A stretch of DNA of 42,801 nt from Thermoproteota archaeon (GTDB lineage: Archaea > Korarchaeota > Korarchaeia > Korarchaeales > Korarchaeaceae). The translations under genes and the position numbers were made by a program. A model generated the notes under the pieces. The model saw only the letters and a program-made list of their open reading frames with translations, had not been told where the DNA came from and did no database searches. Below, one piece after another: positions 25,071 to 37,537 of the stretch (within the stretch, counting starts at the first letter, position 1; the number at the start of each line of letters is the position of its first letter). The DNA is taken from positions 1 through 42,801 of the forward strand of contig JAOZFH010000048.1 of NCBI GenBank assembly GCA_027491415.1, read 5' to 3'.

Positions 25071-25252
25071 TCCCGATGGCGGGACCCCAATCCAGACCGC
25101 CGATCCGGTTGGGGGCCTTGAGTGGGGACGTTCCACGGTCTCAAAGGCGGAGGATCTCACCACGCCCGACTGGCCCCCCGGCCCTTCGCTCGAGTGTCGA
25201 GCCGCTGCGGTGGGCTTAGGCTCCCAGAAGGCCCCTCCTCCCACCGGCGCCA

Positions 25253-25260
25253 ACTTTATC
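25253..25260 (+). promoter_or_regulatory. TATA box of the radical SAM gene
   Basis: ACTTTATC is the only A/T-rich element in 25071-25292 and lies about 36 nt before TTG 25293. The rest of that 222-bp gap shows no gene. Confidence 0.4.
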
Positions 25261-25292
25261 ACGACGTTGTAGAGGCCGGGACCCGAGGAGCG

Positions 25293-26441
25293 TTGCGCCC
25301 GATCAGGCTGCTGGGAGGAACCTACATCCCAGATGAGGAGTTCCCGAGGGAGGTCCACGTCGAGCTGACGGCCAGGTGCAACCTGAACTGCGCATTCTGT
25401 TACAGGCAGAGCTGGCCGGGCCCCTTCGAAGACATGGACATGGGCCTATTCCGAAGGCTGGTTGACGAGCTGGAGGAGCTGGGGGTCGAGATCGTCTGGC
25501 TCAGCGGGTGGGGCGAGCCCCTCTTCCACCCAAACTTCGGGGAAGCCCTGGACCTCTTGGAGGGCAGGTTCAGAATAGGCATAGTGAGCAACGGCCTTCT
25601 GCTGGGGAGGTACGCCGAGAAGATCGTGGAAGCTGGGGTCGACTGGGTGGTCTTGAGCGTGGACAGCTTTCAACGGGACCTCTACGAGGTCCTCAGGAGG
25701 GGATCCAGGCTCCAGGCCGTGGAGGAGGGGATGATCAGGCTCGACGCCCTCAGGAGGGTGGCCGGCCGCGGGGGAAAGCCGGCCATATGGGTCTCCACCA
25801 TAGTGATGAGATCCAACTACCGAGACCTCCCCGCCCACGTGGAGCGCGCCTCTAGGCTGGGCGCCAACGGGCTCCTGCTCTCCAACCTCATACCCACGAC
25901 GGAGGAGATGGCCGGCGAGGTCATCTACTTCCGGGAGGCGCCGGAGGACCTCCCGGAGGTGATGCACAGGGCGAGGATGAGGGCGATCCTCACCAACCTC
26001 AGGCTGGTCGAGCCGGAGTTCGCCTACAAGACCGAGCGGAGCTGCCCCTTCATCAACAACAGGATGCTGGTCGTCTCCTGGGACGGAGACGTTGTCCCTT
26101 GCCTCTTCGCCCTCCACGACTACTACGCTTGGATCGACGGCCGGGAGAAGCTGATCAGGAGGATATCCTTCGGGAACCTGCGGGAGCGGACCCTGAGGGA
26201 GATATGGGAGTCTCCGGAGTACGTGAGGTTCAGAGCCCTCGTCAGGCTCGCCCAGTACCCGTCCTGCAACGACTGTCAGTTCGAGGACTCGTGCGACTTC
26301 GCCGCATCAAACGAGGTGGACTGCTGGGGCAACTCGCCCTCCTGCGCCGCCTGCCCCTACTACCGCAGGGTGGTCCAGTGTCCCTACAGCGGGCTGCTCG
26401 AGACAGTCCGCCTGATAAGGGAGTATCCCGAGGCCACCTGA
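25293..26441 (+). CDS. Radical SAM/SPASM protein resembling tungsten-oxidoreductase maturases
   Basis: 382 residues from TTG 25293 (CGAGGAG just upstream); the open frame extends further but through the promoter. The radical SAM cluster is C29-x3-C33-x2-C36 in ELTARCNLNCAFCYRQSW, with WLSGWGEPLFHP as the SAM-binding GGEP-like motif. The SPASM-type C-terminus is Cys-rich: RSCPFINNRMLVVSWDGDVVPC, then CNDCQFEDSC, DCWGNSPSCAACPYY and VQCP, which would hold auxiliary Fe-S clusters. The DCWGNSPSC signature is what I associate with the radical SAM maturase found with tungsten cofactor oxidoreductases. An AOR and a MoaD-like gene are 11-13 kb away. The exact modification is unknown. Confidence 0.8.
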   Translation: MRPIRLLGGTYIPDEEFPREVHVELTARCNLNCAFCYRQSWPGPFEDMDMGLFRRLVDELEELGVEIVWLSGWGEPLFHPNFGEALDLLEGRFRIGIVSNGLLLGRYAEKIVEAGVDWVVLSVDSFQRDLYEVLRRGSRLQAVEEGMIRLDALRRVAGRGGKPAIWVSTIVMRSNYRDLPAHVERASRLGANGLLLSNLIPTTEEMAGEVIYFREAPEDLPEVMHRARMRAILTNLRLVEPEFAYKTERSCPFINNRMLVVSWDGDVVPCLFALHDYYAWIDGREKLIRRISFGNLRERTLREIWESPEYVRFRALVRLAQYPSCNDCQFEDSCDFAASNEVDCWGNSPSCAACPYYRRVVQCPYSGLLETVRLIREYPEAT

Positions 26442-26450
26442 GGCCCCGCC

Positions 26451-27866
26451 TCACCCCCGTCCCGAGGCCAGCCCCCTCAGCAGGGAGAGGACCCTCTCCC
26501 TCGCCGACCTGACCCTCTCCTCCTCGGCCCTGAGCCACCCCTCGTCTTTCTTCAACCTCTCCTCCGCCGCCCCGGCCGACCTCAAGACCTCCCGGGGGTT
26601 GGGGCCTCCCTCCACCGTCCTGGCCCGCAGGGCCCCCTCAAGGTCTGGCGGGGGGAGCCCCAGGTCAGCCGCCACCTCCCCGACCCCCCTCCCGGCGGAC
26701 AGCCCCAGGGCCACGGACCGGTGGGCCTCCCTGAACGGGACCCCCCTCAGCGCCGCCTGCTCCGCCAGGTCCTGGGCGAGGCCCTCTCCGCCCGGTCCCG
26801 CCGCGTCCCTCCTCAGGGCCTCCCTGTCCCACTCAGCCCGGGCGAGGAGGTCCGCCATGACGGCCGACGCCCTCGCCGCCTCGTCCATGATCCAGAGGGA
26901 GTGGAGGGTCAGCTCCTGTAGGTCCAAGTTGTAGCCGCTGGGGAGGCCCTTCATCACGGCCGCCATCGCCAGGAGCCTTCCAATGGCCTCCCCGGCCCTC
27001 GCCCTCACCACCTCCAGGGTGACCGGGTTGACCTTCTGGGGCATGACGCTGCTGGAGGCGGAGTGCTCGGGGGGTACCCTCAGGTACCCGAAGTTAGGCG
27101 TCGACCACACTATCAGGTCCTCCGCCACCCTGCTCAGCGAGACCAGGAGCCACGCGGCCGGAGATGAGGAGGTGAGGAGGAAGTCCCTGGACCCCGACGC
27201 GTACAGGGTGTTCCCGACCACCCCTCTGAAGCCCAGCAGGTCGGCCACCCTCCTCCTGTCTACCGGCAGGGAGGGCCCCGACGCGGCGCACGCGCCCATG
27301 GGGGAAGCGTCGACCTCCTCCAGGGCCCGGGCCATGGAGCGCCAGTGGTGGGACACCGACTCCTCAACCGCCAGTGCGTAGTGCCCGAGCGTAGTCGGCT
27401 GGGCGTGCCTCAGGTGGGTGAAGGCCGGCATCGGCCAGTCGGCGAACCTCCCCCCCATCGACGAGAGGACCTCCCTAAGCCGCGCCGCCTGCCTCAGCGC
27501 CCGGAGCACCCTGGACCTCACGGCAAGCCTGATGGCCGCCGCCACCTGGTCGTTCCTGCTCTTCCCGAATCCGATCCAGCCTGCCGCCTCCTCCCCAATC
27601 TCCCCGACAATCCAGGCCTCCAGAGACTCGTGAACGTCGTCGTACTCGCCTGACAGGATCTCCTCCCTCGCGTTCAGCGATTTGAGGAGGGCGGAGGCGC
27701 AGGAGGAGGCCGCCGACCGCGGGATCAGGCCCAGCTCGGTCAGGTGGATCAGGTGGGCCGACGCCACGAGAACCACCTCCTCGAATATTAGCGGGTCCAC
27801 CGTCCTCAGCGAGGAGGTGTACTCGGCGATCCACCCAGGCCTCTCCCCCAGCGCGGGCCTGTACAA
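26451..27866 (-). CDS. argH: Argininosuccinate lyase
   Basis: 471 residues from TTG 27866, whose first base directly abuts the argG stop. Fumarase/ASL superfamily signatures are EYDDVHESLEAWIVGEIGEEAAGWIGFGKSRNDQ, THLRHAQPTTLGHY with the catalytic His, and the flexible loop SASSSVMPQKVNPVTLEVVRARAG. It cleaves argininosuccinate to arginine and fumarate. The C-terminus is longer and more charged (KKDEGWLRAEEERVRSARER) than in many homologues. Confidence 0.95.
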   Translation of the reverse strand: MYRPALGERPGWIAEYTSSLRTVDPLIFEEVVLVASAHLIHLTELGLIPRSAASSCASALLKSLNAREEILSGEYDDVHESLEAWIVGEIGEEAAGWIGFGKSRNDQVAAAIRLAVRSRVLRALRQAARLREVLSSMGGRFADWPMPAFTHLRHAQPTTLGHYALAVEESVSHHWRSMARALEEVDASPMGACAASGPSLPVDRRRVADLLGFRGVVGNTLYASGSRDFLLTSSSPAAWLLVSLSRVAEDLIVWSTPNFGYLRVPPEHSASSSVMPQKVNPVTLEVVRARAGEAIGRLLAMAAVMKGLPSGYNLDLQELTLHSLWIMDEAARASAVMADLLARAEWDREALRRDAAGPGGEGLAQDLAEQAALRGVPFREAHRSVALGLSAGRGVGEVAADLGLPPPDLEGALRARTVEGGPNPREVLRSAGAAEERLKKDEGWLRAEEERVRSARERVLSLLRGLASGRG

Positions 27867-29057
27867 CTAGCCCCTCGCCCCCCTCGCCAGCCAGGTCGGC
27901 AGCCCCCAGGCGGATATGAACCCCCTGGCCTGCTCGTCCGTCGGGTACCAGCCCTCATCGTAGCTCGCCACCTCTAGGCTGTAGGACTGGCGCTCGGCCC
28001 TCCTCCCCACCACCGCGACTGACCCCTTGTACAGCCTGAGCCTGACCTCCCCCGAGACCGGCCTGTCCAGGCTCGCTATGAACTCCTCGAGGCTCTCCCT
28101 GAGGGGAGACGCCCAGAGCCCCTCGTAGACCAGCCTCGTCCACTCCCCGTCGGCGAGGGACTTGAACCTGAGCTCCTCCTTGGTCAGGACGAGCTTCTCT
28201 AGGTCGAGGTGCGCCTCCAGAATTGTGACCGCGGCCGGGCACTCGTAGACCTCCCTGCTCTTGAACCCCACGACTCTGCTCTCCACGTGGTCGATCCTCC
28301 CCACCCCGTGAGCCCCGGCCAGCTCGTTCAGCCTGGTAACCAGGTCCTCCGGGGCCATCTCCTCCCCGTTCAGCGACGTGGGCACCCCGCCCTCAAAGCC
28401 CAGGGTGATCTCAAGCGGCTCGTCCGGCGCCCTCTCCGGATCCACCGTCCACTCGAAGGCCTCAGGGCTCGGCCCGGTCCAGGGATCCTCCAGCTCGGAC
28501 CCCTCGACGCTCCTGCCCCAGAGGTTCTGGTCTATCGAGTACCTGCGGTGGGCCCTCGGAACCGGGATACCCCTCTCCTCGGCGTACCGCACCTCTTCCT
28601 CCCTGGTCCAGCTCCAGACCCTGACCGGCGCCAGGACCTTCAGCTCGGGCGCGAGGGCCGCCGCCGTGAGGTCGAACCTGACCTGGTCGTTCCCCTTGGC
28701 CGTGCACCCGTGGGCCACCGCGTCGGCCCCGACCTCCCTAGCCACCTCCACGAGCTTCTCCACGATGAGCGGCCTCGAGAGGGCGCTGGACAGGGGATAC
28801 TTCCCCTCGTAGAGGGCGTTGGCCCTCACGGCCGGCCAGACGAACCTCTCCACGAACTCCCTCCTGGCGTCCACGTGGACGTGCCTGGATGCCCCAGCCG
28901 CCACCGCCCTCTCCCTGAGCTCGGCCTCGTCCGCGCCCTGCCCCACGTCCACGGTTAGGGTGACGACCTCTACTCCAGCCTCGGAGAACCACTTGACGGC
29001 CACCGTGGTGTCCAGCCCGCCCGAGTACGCGAGGACGACCCTAGAAACAGACTCCAG
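27867..29057 (-). CDS. argG: Argininosuccinate synthase with no canonical start codon
   Basis: The protein is unmistakable: the P-loop pyrophosphatase motif VLAYSGGLDTTVAVKWFSEAG, TVDVGQG, YEGKYPLSSALSRPLIVEKLVEVARE, VAHGCTAKGNDQVRF, the LTKEELRFK segment and the usual C-terminal region. It ligates citrulline and aspartate using ATP. The first ATG/GTG/TTG in frame (GTG 29003) lies inside the protein after the P-loop. Upstream the frame is open only to a TGA at 29099-29097 and offers just CTG codons (29057, 29075). I set the start at CTG 29057, giving 396 residues, a normal length. A GTG at 29100 in the neighbouring frame would join by one +1 shift at TTC TAG (29046-29041) or one indel in the G-run. 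Confidence 0.9.
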   Translation of the reverse strand: MESVSRVVLAYSGGLDTTVAVKWFSEAGVEVVTLTVDVGQGADEAELRERAVAAGASRHVHVDARREFVERFVWPAVRANALYEGKYPLSSALSRPLIVEKLVEVAREVGADAVAHGCTAKGNDQVRFDLTAAALAPELKVLAPVRVWSWTREEEVRYAEERGIPVPRAHRRYSIDQNLWGRSVEGSELEDPWTGPSPEAFEWTVDPERAPDEPLEITLGFEGGVPTSLNGEEMAPEDLVTRLNELAGAHGVGRIDHVESRVVGFKSREVYECPAAVTILEAHLDLEKLVLTKEELRFKSLADGEWTRLVYEGLWASPLRESLEEFIASLDRPVSGEVRLRLYKGSVAVVGRRAERQSYSLEVASYDEGWYPTDEQARGFISAWGLPTWLARGARG

Positions 29058-29119
29058 CCCCCTCTGGGGCTTCAGGTATTCCGGTAACGCACGGTATCAC
29101 CTAGACCGCCCCTCGCGAT

Positions 29120-29132
29120 TCTTTCTATTTTA
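29120..29132 (-). promoter_or_regulatory. TATA box of argG-argH
   Basis: On the minus strand GTAAAATAGAAAG is centred ~27 nt before GTG 29100, which opens a 19-codon frame (MIPCVTGIPEAPEGAGVCF) ending at 29041 over the argG start region. Confidence 0.45.
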
Positions 29133-29199
29133 CCCTTGCCGCCGGGGCCCGTTCACGTTAAATAAGGACCCTCCGGCCAGCCCTCTCTCGGGACCCCCC

Positions 29200-29595
29200 A
29201 TGAGGATCGCCGTACCCAGCGAGGACGACGGGGGCCTCGAGTCCACCGTCAGCCCGCACTTCGGTCGAGCCAGGTTCTACACCATCGTGGATGTGGACGG
29301 GCGCGAGATACGTTCAGTGAGGGTGGTACAGACGCCCTTCCAGCAGCACGGGCCCGGGGACATTCCGAGCTTCCTCCGGGGCCTCGGGGTCGACGTGGTG
29401 CTCGCCTACGGGTTGGGGGTCAGGGCTCGGCAGTTCTTCTCCCAGATGGGGATTCGGGTGGTCACCGGCGCGATGGGGAGGGTAGGCGACGTGATCAGGG
29501 CCTACCTGGAGGGAACCCTCGTGGTGGACGAGAACTGGGAGTCCAGGCCCGGGTTCGGGGAGCACGGCCGCGGGCACGCCGGCCACGCAACCTGA
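29200..29595 (+). CDS. NifX/NafY-like (dinitrogenase Fe-Mo cofactor family) protein
   Basis: 131 residues from ATG 29200; GTTAAATAA at 29155-29163 can be its TATA box. The single-domain NifX fold is MRIAVPSEDDGGLESTVSPHFGRARFYTIVD, PSFLRGLGVDVVLAYGLGVRARQFFSQMGIRVVTGAMG and VGDVIRAYLEGTLV. The SPHFGRA motif is conserved in this family. The tail is His/Gly-rich (FGEHGRGHAGHAT) and could bind metal. Such proteins carry or insert metal clusters in nitrogenase systems and are also common in non-diazotrophic anaerobes with unknown roles. It is the second family member in this window and precedes the TauE cluster by 175 bp. Confidence 0.82.
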   Translation: MRIAVPSEDDGGLESTVSPHFGRARFYTIVDVDGREIRSVRVVQTPFQQHGPGDIPSFLRGLGVDVVLAYGLGVRARQFFSQMGIRVVTGAMGRVGDVIRAYLEGTLVVDENWESRPGFGEHGRGHAGHAT

Positions 29596-29709
29596 CCCCC
29601 CTCGTCCGGTCGGCTGAACTGGCTCTCGGCCAGTCCGCCAGCCGCATGGAGTTCCGGGAACTTCGGCGGCCGCCCGTCCCCCGAGCGAGGGGCCCCCTGG
29701 GGGGCCGCA

Positions 29710-29740
29710 GTTTCGAAGTGAAACTCCCACGCTTTTAGAT
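29710..29740 (+). promoter_or_regulatory. Operator (GTTTC-N5-GAAAC) and TATA box of tauE copy 1
   Basis: GTTTCGAAGTGAAAC (29710-29724) is a perfect inverted repeat placed just upstream of the TATA-like GCTTTTAGAT (29731-29740). The flanking TGAAACTCxCACxCTTTT is nearly identical to the sequence in front of the second tauE copy at 34129-34145. Confidence 0.6.
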
Positions 29741-29770
29741 GTTCCAAAATGGGGGGCCCTGGGGGCCGGC

Positions 29771-30571
29771 ATGGGCGCTCAAGAGGTCGTCGCGCTGCTG
29801 GTCGGGGTAGCCGCGGGCACCCTCGGCGGGCTCATCGGGACGGGCGGCTGCAGCGTGATGCTACCCATACTGGACTTCTACATGGGGCTGCCGCCGACGC
29901 TCGCGATCGGCACCACCCTCTTCGCGGTGATGTTCACAACGCTCTCCGGGGCCTACGGCCACCTCAGGATCAGGAATCTGGACCTCGGCACCACCGCGGT
30001 TATGGGCGGAGCGGGGACCGTCGGGGTGCTCATAGGGTCCTACATCTTCACCGGTATCGCTAGGACGAGGCTTAGCTTGCTCAACCTGATCTTGGGAGCC
30101 GTCTTCCTTCTGCCCGCCCTGAGGATGTTCTACGAGGGGATATCAGGACTCAGAGGTGCGTCGGTCTCAGCGAAGAGTGAGACGGAGGGGATCCCCGGGG
30201 CTGCAGCCCCGAAGGCCCTGTTTGGATTTGCGATAGGGGTGACGACCGGGCTGGTGGGCCTAGGGGGCGGGTACGCCCTCGTGCCGGGGATGATCTATCT
30301 GTTCCACGCGCCCGTCAAGCTGGCCATGGGGACGTCCCTCTCCACGATGATCCCCCTGGCGGTCGTTGGCGGACTGATCAAGCTGAGTCAGGGCTTCGTC
30401 AGGCTGGAGATAGGCCTTCCGCTGGCCGCTGGCACGGTCGTGGGGGCCCAGTTGGGAGCCAGGGCGATCAAGAGAGTCAGGCCGGCGACGCTGAAGGCGC
30501 TCTTCGGGGCGTACTTCCTGTACGTGTCCCTCAAGTACATCGCCTCTTACTTCGGCGTGAGGCTCTGGTGA
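29771..30571 (+). CDS. TauE/SafE-family membrane transporter, copy 1
   Basis: 266 residues from ATG 29771. About eight hydrophobic segments, with the two family repeats marked by AAGTLGGLIGTGGCSVMLPI and GLVGLGGGYALVPGMIYLF, separated by a ~35-residue soluble loop (residues ~121-155). TauE/SafE proteins export sulfite, sulfoacetate or related sulfur/C1 anions; the substrate cannot be told here. It is closely similar along its whole length to the product at 34180, including the identical end YFGVRLW. Its codon use is GC-rich like the genomic background, unlike copy 2. Upstream lies the shared inverted-repeat operator. Confidence 0.9.
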   Translation: MGAQEVVALLVGVAAGTLGGLIGTGGCSVMLPILDFYMGLPPTLAIGTTLFAVMFTTLSGAYGHLRIRNLDLGTTAVMGGAGTVGVLIGSYIFTGIARTRLSLLNLILGAVFLLPALRMFYEGISGLRGASVSAKSETEGIPGAAAPKALFGFAIGVTTGLVGLGGGYALVPGMIYLFHAPVKLAMGTSLSTMIPLAVVGGLIKLSQGFVRLEIGLPLAAGTVVGAQLGARAIKRVRPATLKALFGAYFLYVSLKYIASYFGVRLW

Positions 30572-30622
30572 TCTCTTGAGAACGGGCTCTCCGACTCAGG
30601 GGCTCCAGCGGCCTCTCCCTCT

Positions 30623-30650
30623 GTTTCGTTTTGAAACCAAAAGTTAGAAT
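30623..30650 (+). promoter_or_regulatory. Operator (GTTTC-N5-GAAAC) of the Lrp-like regulator gene
   Basis: GTTTCGTTTTGAAAC (30623-30637) is a perfect inverted repeat directly next to an A/T-rich promoter (AAAAGTTAGAATGATTATTA), 26-40 nt before ATG 30663. It is consistent with autoregulation. Confidence 0.6.
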
Positions 30651-30662
30651 GATTATTACCAA

Positions 30663-31247
30663 ATGAGCAGCCCCGGAGGGGCCGTGAACTCGAGAGATCT
30701 GCGGCTAGTGGCCAGGCTCAGAGAGATCGGGATCCGGCGGGGCCGGTTCTCGCTGACTGAACTGGCGAGGGTCGAGGGAGTCACTCACGTGGCGGTCGGA
30801 AAGAGGCTAAGGAGGCTGATCGCGAGGGGAGAGTACAGGCTGGTTCCCGAGGTGAATCTGAGCAAGCTGGGCTACAAGGTCGCGCTGGTCAAGGTGGAGG
30901 TCCCGGGGTACGCCGAACTCGCCAAGCTCGAGGGTCTGTACGCGAAATGCCCTCGGACCATCTGGATGATGGAGTCGATGGGCAACTACAGCCTGATCAT
31001 ACTGATGTACGCCGAGAACGACGCGGTTCTCAAGAGCATCCTGTCCAGCTGCTCTGTGAGGACGAGGCCTGAAGTCAGGAAGTCGGAGGTGGAGGTCGGT
31101 GAGATAGTCGGTGGCTTCGCTCCGATTGTCCCGCCGGTCGGGGGCGAGCTCTCAGAAGCCCCCTGCGGTGTGTACTGCGCGGAGTGTCAAAGGTATGAGA
31201 GCGGGGACTGCAAGGGGTGTCCACTGACCGAACACTACCGCCCTTAA
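30663..31247 (+). CDS. Lrp/AsnC-like regulator with DUF3795-like cysteine tail
   Basis: 194 residues. An N-terminal winged helix (FSLTELARVEGVTHVAVGKRLRRLIARGEYRLVPEVNLSKLGY) leads to an RAM/ACT-like dimer domain (VALVKVEVPGYAEL, MMESMGNYSLIILMYAEND), the Lrp/AsnC arrangement. The C-terminal ~30 residues are CGVYCAECQRYESGDCKGCP, five Cys as C-x3-C-x2-C-x7-C-x2-C, resembling the core of DUF3795 metal-binding domains. Such a tail could sense metal, redox state or persulfide. It is flanked by tauE copy 1 and a lipoate-ligase-like gene and carries the shared operator at its own promoter, so it is the best candidate for the regulator of this cluster. That link is inference. Confidence 0.78.
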   Translation: MSSPGGAVNSRDLRLVARLREIGIRRGRFSLTELARVEGVTHVAVGKRLRRLIARGEYRLVPEVNLSKLGYKVALVKVEVPGYAELAKLEGLYAKCPRTIWMMESMGNYSLIILMYAENDAVLKSILSSCSVRTRPEVRKSEVEVGEIVGGFAPIVPPVGGELSEAPCGVYCAECQRYESGDCKGCPLTEHYRP

Positions 31248-31254
31248 CCTAGTG

Positions 31255-31282
31255 GTTTCACCTTGACACTCCCCTCTTTAAT
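31255..31282 (+). promoter_or_regulatory. Operator-like repeat of the degenerate lipoate-ligase gene
   Basis: GTTTCACCTTGACAC (31255-31269) matches GTTTC-N5-GAAAC with one mismatch and is followed by CTCTTTAATG (31273-31282), the TATA element ~35 nt before ATG 31313. The spacing between repeat and TATA is like that at both tauE genes. Confidence 0.5.
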
Positions 31283-31312
31283 GGCTCTGCTGACGGCTGA
31301 GTTGGCCCACTC

Positions 31313-32314
31313 ATGAAGGTGCTAACCGCCGACTTGGGCTCTGACGGGCTGAACCTGGCCCTTGACGAAGCTCTGCTGAGGAGGCTGGGATCCTCTAGCA
31401 GGGATCCCGTCGCCAGAATATACTCCGGTGAGGGATCCCTGGTCTTGGGGGCGAGAAGCGGTCTGTCGGCAGATCAGGTGAGGGCTCTGGAGCGCTCCGG
31501 CTTGTCCGTGCTGAGGAGGGCTTCTTCGGGAGATCCCTACATGATCGCCCCTGGGTGGGTCTCTCTCACGCTCGTTACGCCCTGCTCGCCGTCCGAGACT
31601 GCGTCGAAGACTTGTGAGAAGCTGTCAAGTCTGGCCTCAGACCTGCTCTCCGCCGCCGGATACGAACTAGACTTCGAGCAGGCCACAGGATCTGCTCGGC
31701 TGAATGGCTCGCGAGTGTTCATTGGAGGATTCGCCTTCTACAGGAGCGGAGCGATGCTCCAGGGCGGCCTGTGGGTAGGTGACGCTGAGCTTAGCTTTCC
31801 CATCTTCAGAGACGCGCGGAGCCTGTCTGAAGTCCTTGGAATCGCTGTAGAGACGAAAGTCGTCTTCGAGAGAATGGTAGAGGCTGCGAGGGAGCTGGGT
31901 TGGGAAGATGGTCGCGTCGAAGATGAGGACCTGAAGCTGGCGGACCTCCTCTGGAGGAAGAAGTACTCCAGCAGGGCTTGGATCGAGAGGAGCTTAGAGC
32001 CGCTGACGCTAAAGGACCTTCTCATAGAGCTTTACGTTGCCAATCCGCCCACGTCTATATGCAAGGAGTTTGCAAAGATTCTCTCTTCAGCTATCTCAGG
32101 GCTGGAGGACAGAGTGGAGGTCAGGATATGGAGGAGGGGGATGGGCCGCCCGCCGGGCGTGCCCGTCTCGGGCGGGCTCGTGAAGGCATCAAAGGAGTCT
32201 AGGATACCCGCGATAGTGATTAACGGCGAGCTGCTCTTCTACTGCCGACCGCCCGCCGTCGGAGACGTGAGGAAGGCTATACTCAAGAGGCTCCCTAGAG
32301 AGGAAGAGGACTAG
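31313..32314 (+). CDS. Degenerate lipoate-protein ligase paralogue with thioredoxin-like C-terminus
   Basis: 333 residues. The first ~230 align by pattern with LplA: LNLALDEALLRRLG, VARIYSGEGSLVLGARSGLSADQV, VLRRASSGDPYMIAPGWVSLTLV and the WRKKYSSRAWIE element. The nucleotide-binding RRxSGGGxVxxD motif has become RRASSGDPYMI, and the catalytic Lys position (KVSGTAQ in the intact gene) reads GSRVFIGGF, so adenylation is unlikely. The last ~95 residues (VEVRIWRRG...IPAIVINGELLFYCRPPAVGDVRKAIL) look like a thioredoxin fold without CxxC but with one Cys. It converges on the intact ligase, the two stops sharing CTAG. It may bind lipoyl or persulfide carriers; that is speculation. Confidence 0.7.
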   Translation: MKVLTADLGSDGLNLALDEALLRRLGSSSRDPVARIYSGEGSLVLGARSGLSADQVRALERSGLSVLRRASSGDPYMIAPGWVSLTLVTPCSPSETASKTCEKLSSLASDLLSAAGYELDFEQATGSARLNGSRVFIGGFAFYRSGAMLQGGLWVGDAELSFPIFRDARSLSEVLGIAVETKVVFERMVEAARELGWEDGRVEDEDLKLADLLWRKKYSSRAWIERSLEPLTLKDLLIELYVANPPTSICKEFAKILSSAISGLEDRVEVRIWRRGMGRPPGVPVSGGLVKASKESRIPAIVINGELLFYCRPPAVGDVRKAILKRLPREEED

Positions 32315-33234
32315 AGCGGCCTGACCCCGCCGGATCGGGGATCGGAGGTGAGAGCATGCTCTATCGCCTCAGCCACGGCCCCGCCAGCCTCTCTAGCTTG
32401 AGGATAGTCTAGCCACTCCACTCGCCCGCCAGAGTGCACTATGGCTCCGATGGGACCCCCTCTCCCGACCAAGAGATGAACCCTAACGGATCCGTCCGAG
32501 CTAGTGCCCCAGTAGACCTCAAGCGGGCCGAGATCTCTCCTGCAGTACTTCGGCAGGAGGCTCTCGGCGAGCCTCACTTCCTCGGGAGTGAATTCTCCTT
32601 GGCGTGGCTGGAGCCCCAGGGAGAGCGCGACGCGATTCACTAGCAAAGATAGTAGCTCTGTTGGATCTACCTCTCGGCCCATCAGATCAGATACATTCGC
32701 TACAGGGGCCTTCGGCCTGGCTATGACGGCGTTCAGAGCCTCTAGATTGGTCGAGACCAGGAGCGTTCCGTGGTGGAGCAGACCCCCGTATAACATCGAT
32801 TGAGCCGTCCCCGACACTTTGAGGCCCCTAACCCAGACCCCCAAGTCGCAGAACTCGGGTTCTAAACCCATATCCCTCAAGAGGTCCGCTACTCCAGCCG
32901 AGAGCGTCCTGTACCTATCTTTAGCCTCTTCGGGAGCCGAGCGTCTGGGGACGATAACCGAGTATATGAGACAGCCTGGATCGAGATACACGGCCCCTCC
33001 ACCGCTCTCCCTCCGGACTAGGCGAATTCCCAGCTCTTCAACGGCCTGCAAGTCTACTTCTTTCAAGGTCTCGGGGTTGACGCCTATGACCACTGCCGGG
33101 CGGGCTCTCCAAGCGATTACCGTGGCCTCGGACTTACCCTCGCCCAAGAGGCGGAGAACGGCCTCTTCAAGGGCGAGCCCCCACGCAACGTCGATCGGAT
33201 TGCGGAGAATGATTGTCCTAATGCCGTCCCTCAT
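32311..33234 (-). CDS. lplA: Lipoate-protein ligase A family protein
   Basis: 307 residues from ATG 33234, overlapping the DUF5714 stop as ATGA. Catalytic motifs are LRNPIDVAWGLALEEAVLRLL, VVIGVNPETLKEV, the adenylate-binding RRESGGGAVYLDPGCLIYSVIV, the Lys motif LKVSGTAQSMLYGGLLHHGTLLV and PVANVSDLMGREV. It would activate lipoate (or octanoate) with ATP and attach it to a lysine of a carrier. The C-terminal ~70 residues (VRVHLLVGRGGPIGAIVHSG) resemble the LplB-type accessory domain. No lipoyl-domain substrate is encoded in this window. In known sulfur-oxidising sHdr systems, dedicated lipoate ligases serve lipoate-binding sulfur carriers. Confidence 0.85.
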   Translation of the reverse strand: MRDGIRTIILRNPIDVAWGLALEEAVLRLLGEGKSEATVIAWRARPAVVIGVNPETLKEVDLQAVEELGIRLVRRESGGGAVYLDPGCLIYSVIVPRRSAPEEAKDRYRTLSAGVADLLRDMGLEPEFCDLGVWVRGLKVSGTAQSMLYGGLLHHGTLLVSTNLEALNAVIARPKAPVANVSDLMGREVDPTELLSLLVNRVALSLGLQPRQGEFTPEEVRLAESLLPKYCRRDLGPLEVYWGTSSDGSVRVHLLVGRGGPIGAIVHSGGRVEWLDYPQAREAGGAVAEAIEHALTSDPRSGGVRPL

Positions 33235-33992
33235 GCCGTTCGACCTCGCGGGTGGTAAGGGCATCTCTCACCCCAGCACTCGCCGTTGCGCTCACTGAAC
33301 ATGCATGCGCCCTCGAGATCTCTTAACACCACAGGTATGCCTATTTCTTCTCTGAGTATTGGCACCGCCACCTCCAGCGAGGCGTAGACGCTGGCCTTGC
33401 AGCACCTAGGGCCCCCGAGCCCAGCAATCCTCTTGAGGGCAGAGGCGGTCGTCTCCATGGCGAGAGACCTCTCCCTGTCTGACTTGTGGGTCGCTCCGGT
33501 GATCACGCTCACGATCACGCCAGCCCCTATAGCGGCGCCACACACGCCCAGAAGGCCGCACGCCGCATAGGGTATTGGCTTGAGTCTCGCGATAGCCCTC
33601 TTGATGTGAGACAGACTCAGCTCTGCTCCAGCGTTCTTGGCGGCCGCTAGGAGCGAGGCGGCCACTACGAGGTGATGTATCGGCCCGAAGAGATCCACGG
33701 CTGGGTGAGTGAAGATCCGGTCGGCTATTAGGGATGGGTCAGCTTCACTCGACCTGCTCGCGACCTTAAGCACGATCTCCTCGCCGCTCGCCAGCCTACA
33801 CTCCTCGCAGACGTAGTGGCCGTTAATGCACACGAAGTCGGCGGGCTCCCTCTTCCCGCAGTAGTAGCACTCCCACTCGCCGCTCGCTGGCTTAAGGGGG
33901 GCTCCACATATTGGGCAGGATGCCTCCCCGCTCGTCAGCCGGCTTAGGAGATCTCCTTTGTCTTCCATCTCCACGATCGGTTCTCGATCCAT
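33231..33992 (-). CDS. DUF5714 protein with N-terminal zinc ribbon
   Basis: 253 residues from ATG 33992, the first Met after the promoter-like tract. The N-terminus is a zinc ribbon (CPICGAPLKPASGEWECYYCGK) with a second knuckle (CINGHYVCEEC). The body is the DUF5714 domain: FGPIHHLVVAASLLAAAKN, PYAACGLLGVCGAAIGAGVIVSVITGAT, GGPRCCKASVYASLEVAVPIL and the Cys-rich end CMFSERNGECWGERCPYH. Conserved Cys/His pairs suggest metal binding, but no activity is known to me. It forms a two-gene operon with lplA (ATGA overlap), which ties this uncharacterised family to lipoate chemistry here. Confidence 0.82.
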   Translation of the reverse strand: MDREPIVEMEDKGDLLSRLTSGEASCPICGAPLKPASGEWECYYCGKREPADFVCINGHYVCEECRLASGEEIVLKVASRSSEADPSLIADRIFTHPAVDLFGPIHHLVVAASLLAAAKNAGAELSLSHIKRAIARLKPIPYAACGLLGVCGAAIGAGVIVSVITGATHKSDRERSLAMETTASALKRIAGLGGPRCCKASVYASLEVAVPILREEIGIPVVLRDLEGACMFSERNGECWGERCPYHPRGRTA

Positions 33993-34103
33993 GGAAAAAG
34001 GTTTTGCAAAAAGTGGCGGCCGTCGAACTGCCTTCACAGCTTGCGCGAGCCGCCGCTTGCCGCCCCCATGGCCAGAGAGCGCCTATCAACTCCCGGAGTA
34101 GAT

Positions 34104-34148
34104 GTTTCAATATGTAACCATTTCAACATGAAACTCTCACACTTTTTA
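34104..34148 (+). promoter_or_regulatory. Tandem operator and TATA box between the DUF5714-lplA operon and tauE copy 2
   Basis: Two copies of the repeat in tandem, GTTTCAATATGTAAC (34104-34118, one mismatch) and ATTTCAACATGAAAC (34120-34134), 16 bp apart. They are followed by the TATA-like CTTTTTAAC (34142-34150). They lie in the 187-bp divergent region, so they could control both directions. On the minus side, ACTTTTTGCAAAACC at ~34001-34015 is a candidate TATA region. Confidence 0.6.
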
Positions 34149-34179
34149 ACAGACGTGTAGAGCTAACTAGGTGATCTCA

Positions 34180-34980
34180 ATGGAGCTCCTGTACGTCTTA
34201 GCGCTGCTAGTGGGTCTAGCTGCTGGTACTCTTGGAGGACTCATTGGCACTGGAGGCTGCAGCGTGATGCTCCCCATACTTCACTTCTACATGGGCCTCT
34301 CGTCCCCACTAGCAGTTGGCACCACGCTCTTCGCGGTCATATTCACGACGCTCTCCGGAGCCTACGGACACCTCAAGATCCGGAACCTAGACGCAAAGGC
34401 AACGGCCGTGATGGGTGGCGCCGGGACCCTGGGGGTCTTGTTGGGCTCGTACCTCTTCACCAAGATAACGCGCTCCCAGGTCGCTCTGCTCGATCTAATC
34501 CTCGGCTTAGTGTTCATCCTACCCTCCATAAGGATGCTCTATGAGGGCCTCAAGGGCATGCGCGGAGTTCCAGCCAAGGGCGAGAGCCAGCTTGACCACA
34601 TACCAGGGAGTTCCACGGCCAAGGCTGCCTTTGGTTTCGTCGTTGGGATAGCGACCGGCTTGGTCGGCCTGGGGGGAGGCTACGCGCTGGTTCCCGGCAT
34701 GATATACCTGTTCAACGCTCCCGTGAAGCTGACGATGGGCACCTCCCTCTCAACAATGATACCCCTCGCTGTCGTCGGCGGCTTGATCAAGCTCAAGCAG
34801 GGCTTCGTCGAAATGAGCGTGGGCGTTCCCCTAGCGATAGGGACGGTGATAGGAGCCCAGATGGGGGCCAGGGCCATCAAGAGGTTCAGGCCAGCCACGC
34901 TTAAGGCGATATTCGGGCTGTACTTCCTCTACGTGTCGCTGAAGTACGTAGCCGCCTACTTCGGAGTGAGGCTCTGGTAG
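34180..34980 (+). CDS. TauE/SafE-family membrane transporter, copy 2
   Basis: 266 residues from ATG 34180, which has AGGTGAT 6 nt upstream; GTG 34171 is an alternative leaderless start. About eight hydrophobic segments with the same repeat motifs as copy 1 (AAGTLGGLIGTGGCSVMLPI, GLVGLGGGYALVPGMIYLF) and the same end YFGVRLW. The central loop (KGMRGVPAKGESQLDHIPGSS) differs most. Codon use is less GC-biased than in copy 1, suggesting a different history. Both copies carry the GTTTC-type operator, so they may respond to the same signal. Confidence 0.9.
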   Translation: MELLYVLALLVGLAAGTLGGLIGTGGCSVMLPILHFYMGLSSPLAVGTTLFAVIFTTLSGAYGHLKIRNLDAKATAVMGGAGTLGVLLGSYLFTKITRSQVALLDLILGLVFILPSIRMLYEGLKGMRGVPAKGESQLDHIPGSSTAKAAFGFVVGIATGLVGLGGGYALVPGMIYLFNAPVKLTMGTSLSTMIPLAVVGGLIKLKQGFVEMSVGVPLAIGTVIGAQMGARAIKRFRPATLKAIFGLYFLYVSLKYVAAYFGVRLW

Positions 34981-35553: not shown

Positions 35554-36000
35554 ATGGAGCTGCTATCCCTAAACGCCTGCTCTCGCCTGTTGCGGGAGAA
35601 GAGGAGGCTGCTGATCTATGGAAAGTGTCTCGAGGTTGAGAGGCCAGGCCTCGTGGAGGGTCTGTCTGAGGGCAGGGTCGCAGTCTGGGCATGCCCGGAG
35701 AGAGACCACATCAACGTGATAGCGCTGAAGGTGGTCTCGATCATAGCCCGAGTAGACTTGGAGGAGGTGACTGTTGTGACTGTGGATGGGAGCCCCCACT
35801 GCGTCCAGCTGCACCACGCCGTGGAAGAGGCTATCAAGGTCACAAAAAGTGAAGACCTAAGCGTGAAGCACCTTGTGTGCCACGGAGACAAGCTCATTGA
35901 AGTCTCACCTCGTGCGGTTAAAGTGGCGAGGTACCTGAGCAAGGTGAAGAGTCTGCTGAGGTTAGAGGAAGAACGCAGGAGTTCTCTCGAGCGAGAGTAG
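35554..36000 (+). CDS. Conserved unknown protein with Cys/His motifs
   Basis: 148 residues. I recognise no named family. It has an N-terminal CSRLLREKRRLLIYGKCLEVE, a central CPERDHINVIALKVVSIIARVDLEEVTVVTVDGSPHCVQLHHAVEEA with alpha/beta alternation, then HLVCHGDKLIEVSPRAVKVARYLSKV. Cys and His are clustered (CPE, PHC, LHH, VCH), hinting at metal or Fe-S binding. That it is a real conserved family is shown within the window: a broken second copy of its C-terminal half lies at 37340-37537 with the same VQLHHA-EEA-KVT, RHLV and RAVK-ARYLSKV blocks. It follows the TauE/lipoate cluster but has no GTTTC operator. Confidence 0.75.
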   Translation: MELLSLNACSRLLREKRRLLIYGKCLEVERPGLVEGLSEGRVAVWACPERDHINVIALKVVSIIARVDLEEVTVVTVDGSPHCVQLHHAVEEAIKVTKSEDLSVKHLVCHGDKLIEVSPRAVKVARYLSKVKSLLRLEEERRSSLERE

Positions 36001-37221: not shown

Positions 37222-37337
37222 GGGCTGGAGGGGGAGATCGCCAGGCTGATATTGGCGATACTCGGTGCGAAGGGGTGGAGTTCGGAGCTGGCTTCAGGCT
37301 GGCATTCCTGCGGGGCGCAGGCAAGGCAAACGATCGG
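37222..37337 (+). pseudogene. Fragment of a second, diverged chorismate synthase gene
   Basis: The DNA follows aroC 22230-22340 closely. LEGEIARLILAILGAKG is read in one frame and EFGAGFRLAFLRGAGKANDRRF in the next, against LEGEIARLILAIPAAKG and EFGAGFRLAPVRGSEANDQF in the intact gene. The frame changes because one G is missing in the run corresponding to GAAGGGGGTGG. About 38 codons survive; nothing on either side is aroC. Confidence 0.8.
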
Positions 37338-37339
37338 CG

Positions 37340-37537
37340 GTTCAGCTCCACCACGCGGCCGAAGAGGCCGCTAAGGTCACCTGCTTCGGCGAGGAGAGGG
37401 TGAGGCACCTCGTGGTTCACTCGGGGCGGCTCGTGTCTGTCTCTCCAAGGCCAAGGGCCGTCAAGGCCGCCAGATACCTCTCTAAGGTTCAGGGGCTCCT
37501 CCAGCAGATTGAGAGTAATTCACAGGCCCAGACGTGA
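37340..37537 (+). pseudogene. 3' fragment of a paralogue of the 148-residue gene
   Basis: Directly after the aroC piece the frame reads VQLHHAAEEAAKVT, RHLVVHSGRLVSVSP and RAVKAARYLSKVQGLLQQIE before a stop, parallel to the C-terminal half of the protein at 35554-36000. Two extra residues interrupt SPRAVK (SPRPRAVK). The 5' half is gone, replaced by the aroC fragment, so this is a recombination chimera of two broken genes. Confidence 0.75.

Follow-up and report, generated by a model that had tools for sequence, protein, structure and literature searches.

Among the described systems closest to the locus treated here is CopR of Pyrococcus furiosus, an Lrp/AsnC-type copper regulator with a C-terminal sensor domain, whose operator TTNNCAWWWTGNNAA lies directly upstream of the transcription factor B recognition element (BRE) (PMC7830388). 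Activation is the effect of archaeal Lrp dimers that bind immediately before the BRE, with Ptr2, LysM and Ss-LrpB as cases in point (PMC2995911). We analyzed a window of 42,801 nucleotides from a Thermoproteota archaeon of the Korarchaeaceae (contig JAOZFH010000048.1), in which a 15-bp inverted repeat, GTTTC-N5-GAAAC, stands at the promoters of two tauE transporter genes (tauE1 and tauE2) and of a gene for an Lrp-type regulator with a cysteine-rich C-terminal tail. The same cluster encodes two proteins with a lipoate-ligase fold (LplA1 and LplA2) and a DUF5714 protein. The system of repeat, regulator and transporter is an archaeal Lrp-type sensor-regulator of a transporter, known in kind, which differs in its cysteine tail, its operator and its TauE partner. 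The cysteine-tailed Lrp family, of which we found no description in the literature, gains in this way a testable candidate operator and a likely physiological target.

The likeness to CopR concerns several traits: an Lrp-type DNA-binding part with a C-terminal region suited to metal or thiol sensing, a semi-palindromic site of 15 bp that contains CA...TG and immediately precedes the BRE, a transporter gene that is often divergent, and few targets. The two operators agree in length, core and position, but the outer bases are G/C here and not T/A, and the core A/T is not kept in every site; the consensus is GTTWC-N5-GWAAC as opposed to TTNNCAWWWTGNNAA. The tail has the pattern CGx2Cx2C-x7-Cx2C (weakly DUF3795-like) whereas CopR carries a TRASH domain, and the partner is a TauE/TSUP or DGC protein instead of the CopA ATPase. 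Pfam scans detected no TRASH domain in the regulator, the tail of which follows a different cysteine pattern, and we therefore rejected its identification as a CopR. With the same layout and a different tail, it would be expected to work like CopR. Ptr2, LysM and Ss-LrpB resemble it in that their targets are local and the place of the dimer site, immediately before the BRE, is constrained; the targets are different ones, and the accessible part of PMC2995911 describes no cysteine tail for them. The bacterial sulfane-sulfur repressors BigR, SoxR and sHdrR also place a cysteine sensor over sulfur-handling genes including transporters, but they belong to the ArsR family, use a two-cysteine switch and have other operators.

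The initial annotation had placed the inverted repeat at 29710-29724, 30623-30637, 31255-31269 (one mismatch) and 34104-34134, and had noted the context TGAAACTCxCACxCTTTT common to both tauE promoters. All sites and the shared context were found as described (Table 1), and the palindrome observation is confirmed and statistically strong. Five sites occur in the window against 0.44 expected, a number reached by none of 100 shuffles. In the whole genome (1.78 Mb) the exact motif is found at 29710 and 30623 only. When one mismatch is allowed, the genome has 24 sites (10 in a reversed control), five of which fall in the 5.3 kb of the cluster (Poisson P ~5e-9). The generalised form GTTWC-N5-GWAAC, which allows T or A at position 4, has three copies in the genome, all three in this cluster of about 5 kb, and the site at 34104 is thus better taken for a normal hybrid variant than for a damaged one. 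Nine out of ten background sites inspected lie within open reading frames according to a mechanical gene call. Frequent occurrence of the motif at unrelated promoters had been named by the initial annotation as the outcome that would speak against it; the genome scan revealed no such frequency. The one-mismatch site at lplA2 has the conserved spacing.

Table 1. Features of the cluster in window coordinates.
Feature	Position	Strand	Sequence or motif	Remarks
Operator 1	29710..29724		GTTTCGAAGTGAAAC	Exact GTTTC-N5-GAAAC; tauE1 start 61 bp downstream
TATA-like	29732-29739		CTTTTAGA	7 bp past operator 1
tauE1	29771..30571	+	GTGGC-SVMLP / GLGGG-YALVP (half motifs)	TSUP transporter; PF01925, E 5.7e-44
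Operator 2	30623..30637		GTTTCGTTTTGAAAC	Exact GTTTC-N5-GAAAC; regulator start 40 bp downstream; abuts TATA-like stretch
Lrp/AsnC-type regulator	30663..31247	+	APCGVYCAECQRYESGDCKGCP	Five-cysteine C-terminal tail
Operator 3, imperfect	31255..31269		GTTTCACCTTGACAC	One mismatch; lplA2 start 58 bp downstream
TATA-like	31276-31283		CTTTAATG	6 bp past operator 3
lplA2	31313..32314	+	PPTxxC (C-terminal domain)	Lipoate-ligase fold without RRxSGGG and catalytic-Lys motifs; thioredoxin-like C-terminal domain
lplA1	32311..33264	-	RRxSGGGAVY and K-SGxAQ intact	Lipoate/octanoate-protein ligase
DUF5714 protein	33231..34037	-	Cys pairs, HH, CGxxGxCGA, CC dyad	Cys pairs Zn-ribbon-like
Operator 4a, hybrid	34104..34118		GTTTCAATATGTAAC	GTTTC...GTAAC; exact match to GTTWC-N5-GWAAC
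Operator 4b	34120..34134		ATTTCAACATGAAAC	One mismatch; tauE2 start 51 bp downstream
TATA-like	34142-34149		CTTTTTAA	7 bp past operator 4b
tauE2	34171..34980	+		PF01925; 75% identical to tauE1

The gene calls of the initial annotation were upheld as well. Both TauE proteins exceed the PF01925 cut-off over their full length (E 5.7e-44 and 4.4e-43), both ligases pass that for LplA-B_cat, and the DUF5714 protein (PF18978) scores 173 bits against a gathering score of 26.2. The regulator matches Lrp models weakly as a single sequence; the profile of its family matches the PDB entry of LrpA (1i1g) with an E-value of 5e-19 over 5-123, as expected of an Lrp/AsnC protein with its AsnC-type winged helix-turn-helix and RAM domain. 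HTH_AsnC-type is above the cut-off in two orthologues (loci L060 and L062; G, L, C, g and f numbers are our handles for genomes, loci, contigs, genera and families). The tail, PCGx2Cx2CxRYx4CxGCP, is conserved in 29 of 30 fetched relatives, and its resemblance to DUF3795 (E 0.03-0.06) is below the cut-off and suggestive at most.

Of 247 archaeal genomes sampled, 43 contain the regulator family according to a profile search. The operator lies within 90 bp upstream of the regulator gene as an exact match at six of 26 loci and within one mismatch at ten of 26, where dinucleotide shuffles give 0.01 and 0.24, respectively. This count leaves out a second regulator copy of genome G002 (L128), which has an exact operator and forms a seventh case. 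Regulator and operator are linked across genera and into the distant family f42, where the operators GTTTCAGGAGGAAAC, GTTTCTCGTCGTAAC and GTTACCCTTTGTAAC stand beside the regulator gene and tauE is not adjacent. Regulator loci without the operator (at least three mismatches) mostly encode the recognition helix HPSVKERL, HTSVRERL or TSMGAKKRL, as opposed to the HVAV/HTAI type. The upstream counts, the f42 cases and this tracking of the recognition helix argue that the operator is very likely that of the regulator family, and GTTWC-N5-GWAAC is most likely the operator, as predicted here, of the 30663-31247 protein. A code linking the recognition helix to T or A at position 4 was looked for, and none was found that holds.

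Two side observations concern the surroundings of the regulator. In f42 (L083, L084, L086, L087, and L088) it occupies a fixed neighbourhood with acetyltransferase-like, thymidylate-synthase-like and elongation-factor-2-like genes (named by eye); in L084, L086 and L087 the operator precedes the regulator. Members of the same regulator family are also divergent from a gene with a DGC domain (PF08859, putatively zinc-binding) at L073:2089-2604 (G008) and L075:2112-2525 (G007). The DGC-like protein of G008 starts with a TauE-like N-terminal stretch, which is either a fusion or an assembly join.

At the family level, TauE/TSUP proteins are assigned to the transport of sulfite/sulfonate or other sulfur anions. 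Close TauE homologues have in common the cysteine in the first half motif (GxGGC), and most of the more distant paralogues read GxGGG. The regulator gene adjoins tauE, mostly in divergent orientation, in genera g1, g2, g3 and g5 and in families f2 and f5. The motif is also present at homologous tauE/Lrp loci of related genomes; its absence from such clusters was the second adverse outcome that the initial annotation had named. The promoter geometry of tauE is uniform: the operator is centred about 50-60 bp before the start codon, and a TATA-like element follows its end after a few bases. In other genera, the tauE or tauE/Lrp promoter holds the sole exact operator of the genome in G015, G018 and G003, one of four exact sites in G007 and one of eight in G002. 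The regulator of G003 and that of G007 are encoded elsewhere, beside a gene with a DGC domain, and the tauE operator is still present. With one mismatch allowed, the operator is found in nine of 13 tauE promoters from genomes with the regulator and in none of six from genomes that lack it (Fisher p = 0.011, indicative only because the genomes are related).

We consider it very probable that the 30663-31247 protein controls tauE and its own gene through this operator. A regulator dimer would bind the palindrome just upstream of the BRE/TATA at tauE1, at tauE2 and at its own gene. At tauE it would most likely recruit TBP/TFB, as Ptr2, LysM and CopR do, and at its own promoter it would limit its synthesis; on balance, activation of tauE is mildly favored over repression. 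Sensing is likely the task of the five-cysteine cluster, which would respond to a reactive sulfur species or a soft metal ion; the protein made in response would be a TSUP transporter whose first half-motif has a conserved cysteine. The unit would thus probably serve to export a sulfur anion or thiol-reactive compound or to tune its level. The tauE gene is duplicated in this genome, and its second copy shares an intergenic region with the DUF5714-LplA1 pair.

Several points weigh against this reading. Operator binding and activation of tauE by the regulator are predictions from sequence, and where the loci are divergent, the operator also overlaps the regulator start, which makes repression equally possible there. 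Genome G035 has both regulator and tauE with no operator in the tauE promoter, the tauE promoters of G010 and G021 match within two mismatches at best, and regulator copies in f3 and f10 are without the operator. The relatedness of the genomes also means that the Fisher test and the locus counts overstate certainty. Finally, the sites of the same-genus genome G001 are not independent, since window positions 25244-31126 are 98% identical to it (L049). The match stops at 31126 within the 3' part of the regulator gene, and other matching parts of the window mostly show 72-90% identity. The two species seem to have exchanged this segment recently, and G001 was rejected as a case of independent conservation.

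The ligases and DUF5714 had been counted by the initial annotation among the core members of one locally regulated unit. The unit itself is supported: the Lrp-like protein is its likely binder, and tauE its target. Core membership of the ligases and DUF5714 is not supported. DUF5714, LplA1 and LplA2 are a real recurring module that looks separate from the tauE switch, because the other DUF5714-ligase loci have no tauE or regulator beside them and, where checked, no good operator match, and G001 has neither DUF5714 nor LplA2. A contig scan for DUF5714 gave a locus in Jordarchaeia (L016:8254-12778) as its sole match, and the module recurs in two genomes of f34, with the orders DUF5714-LplA-thioredoxin-like (G378) and DUF5714-LplA2/LplA1 (G246). 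Neither tauE nor the regulator is adjacent in the Jordarchaeia and f34 loci, and the operator-like sequences upstream of DUF5714 in L016 and L123 have at least three mismatches. In G001, which keeps tauE, regulator and LplA1, the latter comes after a Rid gene, without an operator site. The module meets the operator here via the intergenic region shared with tauE2 and one imperfect site only; the DUF5714-LplA1 pair and LplA2 may have been captured into the regulon in this genome. What was once seen as one thing is now two, a conserved tauE switch and a recurring DUF5714/lipoate-ligase module.

Concerning the proteins of the module, LplA1 reads RRESGGGAVY and K-VSGTAQ, as expected of an LplA, and LplA2 reads RRASSGDPY and has no catalytic lysine. 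The C-terminal domain of LplA2 corresponds to a free-standing 95-aa thioredoxin-like PPTxxC protein in G378 (L123:7367-7654). In DUF5714 the cysteine pairs and the CC dyad (C212-C213) are invariant. The literature searched does not mention DUF5714, and a fold search against the PDB gave no match with an E-value below 2.7, though the predicted model is good (pLDDT 86), so that no function can be transferred. It matches MbdU (NCBIfam NF045648, metal-binding double selenoprotein) over 37-264 with an E-value of 9e-47, but with 160 of 600 bits it is far under the family cut-off, and the window gene has no in-frame UGA. This selenoprotein relative is listed with a CU motif, comparable to the CC dyad (PMC13188914), which suggests that the dyad of DUF5714 may be redox-active.

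One tenable, though not the more probable, explanation of the module is that it attaches lipoate or octanoate to GcvH and stands near the tauE switch by coincidence, with DUF5714 and the thioredoxin-like pseudo-ligase as redox or metal accessories; this is compatible with the tauE switch proposed above. The full ligase motifs of LplA1 agree with it, as do the recurrence of the module without tauE and the GcvH-type protein with nearby gcvP genes in G000 and G246. No GCV_H was found in G378 (83% complete), known ligases do not need the conserved DUF5714 and thioredoxin-like parts, and the imperfect operator at lplA2 keeps its spacing, all of which speak against it.

The best lead on DUF5714 function is the Jordarchaeia cluster, which has the order DsrH-like, DsrE, DsrE, DUF5714, LplA2 (thioredoxin-fused), LplA1, preceded by an ArsR gene on the opposite strand. 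It is from this one locus that DUF5714, and with it the whole module, derives its link to sulfur. It is conceivable, if unlikely, that DUF5714, LplA1 and the thioredoxin-fused LplA2 form an undescribed lipoyl- or thiol-based sulfur relay, DsrE/DsrH-linked in Jordarchaeia and controlled in this lineage, like the duplicated cysteine-pore TauE, by the Lrp switch with its cysteine tail.

Also unlikely is a single co-regulated unit, similar to sHdr-LbpA (PMC6067878, PMC10332631), in which TauE, DUF5714 and the two ligases would together handle sulfur or lipoate persulfide. Physical clustering, the sites before lplA2 and between tauE2 and DUF5714, the DsrE/DsrE/DsrH-like genes in Jordarchaeia, the PPTxxC domain of LplA2 with its separate counterpart in G378, and the fit of the MbdU CU motif with a redox CC dyad (PMC13188914) all point in this direction. 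Beyond the separate loci and the gene content of G001 described above, the position of operators 4a/4b, about 126-142 bp from the likely DUF5714 start and with a TATA-like stretch much closer to that start, is at odds with such a unit. The gene content of this genome, which is 96% complete, does not fit either: no match to DsrE (PF02635) was found, nor one to LipA (LipS1/LipS2 were not searched for), and the single GCV_H (contig C51) lies near gcvPA. No LbpA linked to hdr-like genes was found, and the CCG proteins are encoded on other contigs (C12, C22, and C43). The sHdr-type pathway to which the initial annotation had pointed is therefore unsupported in this organism, and membership in sHdr-LbpA was rejected. 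The likeness is confined to the Jordarchaeia locus, where a lipoate ligase is near sulfur-carrier-like genes; the accessible parts of PMC6067878 and PMC10332631 do not describe DUF5714 or a thioredoxin-fused pseudo-ligase as components of that system.

It is improbable that another regulator binds the palindrome and that the Lrp-like gene is just one more target. G011, which has the tauE subfamily and a two-mismatch promoter palindrome with no match to this Lrp family, would agree with such an arrangement, but the operator stays with the regulator gene in f42, which has no tauE beside it there, its presence tracks the recognition helix, and the 15-bp CA...TG form is of the archaeal Lrp/CopR type. 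A chance motif or general promoter element, for which nothing but the AT-rich flanks of the motif speaks, has practically no probability and was refuted by the genome scan, which gave no further exact site and all three GTTWC-N5-GWAAC sites in the cluster, and by the shuffles.

Downstream of tauE2, the window encodes a 148-aa protein without a Pfam family (35554-36000), which has a 54% relative next to another TauE paralogue in G017 (L064:10007-10309). A second copy of this protein, possibly degenerate, is present at 37265-37537.

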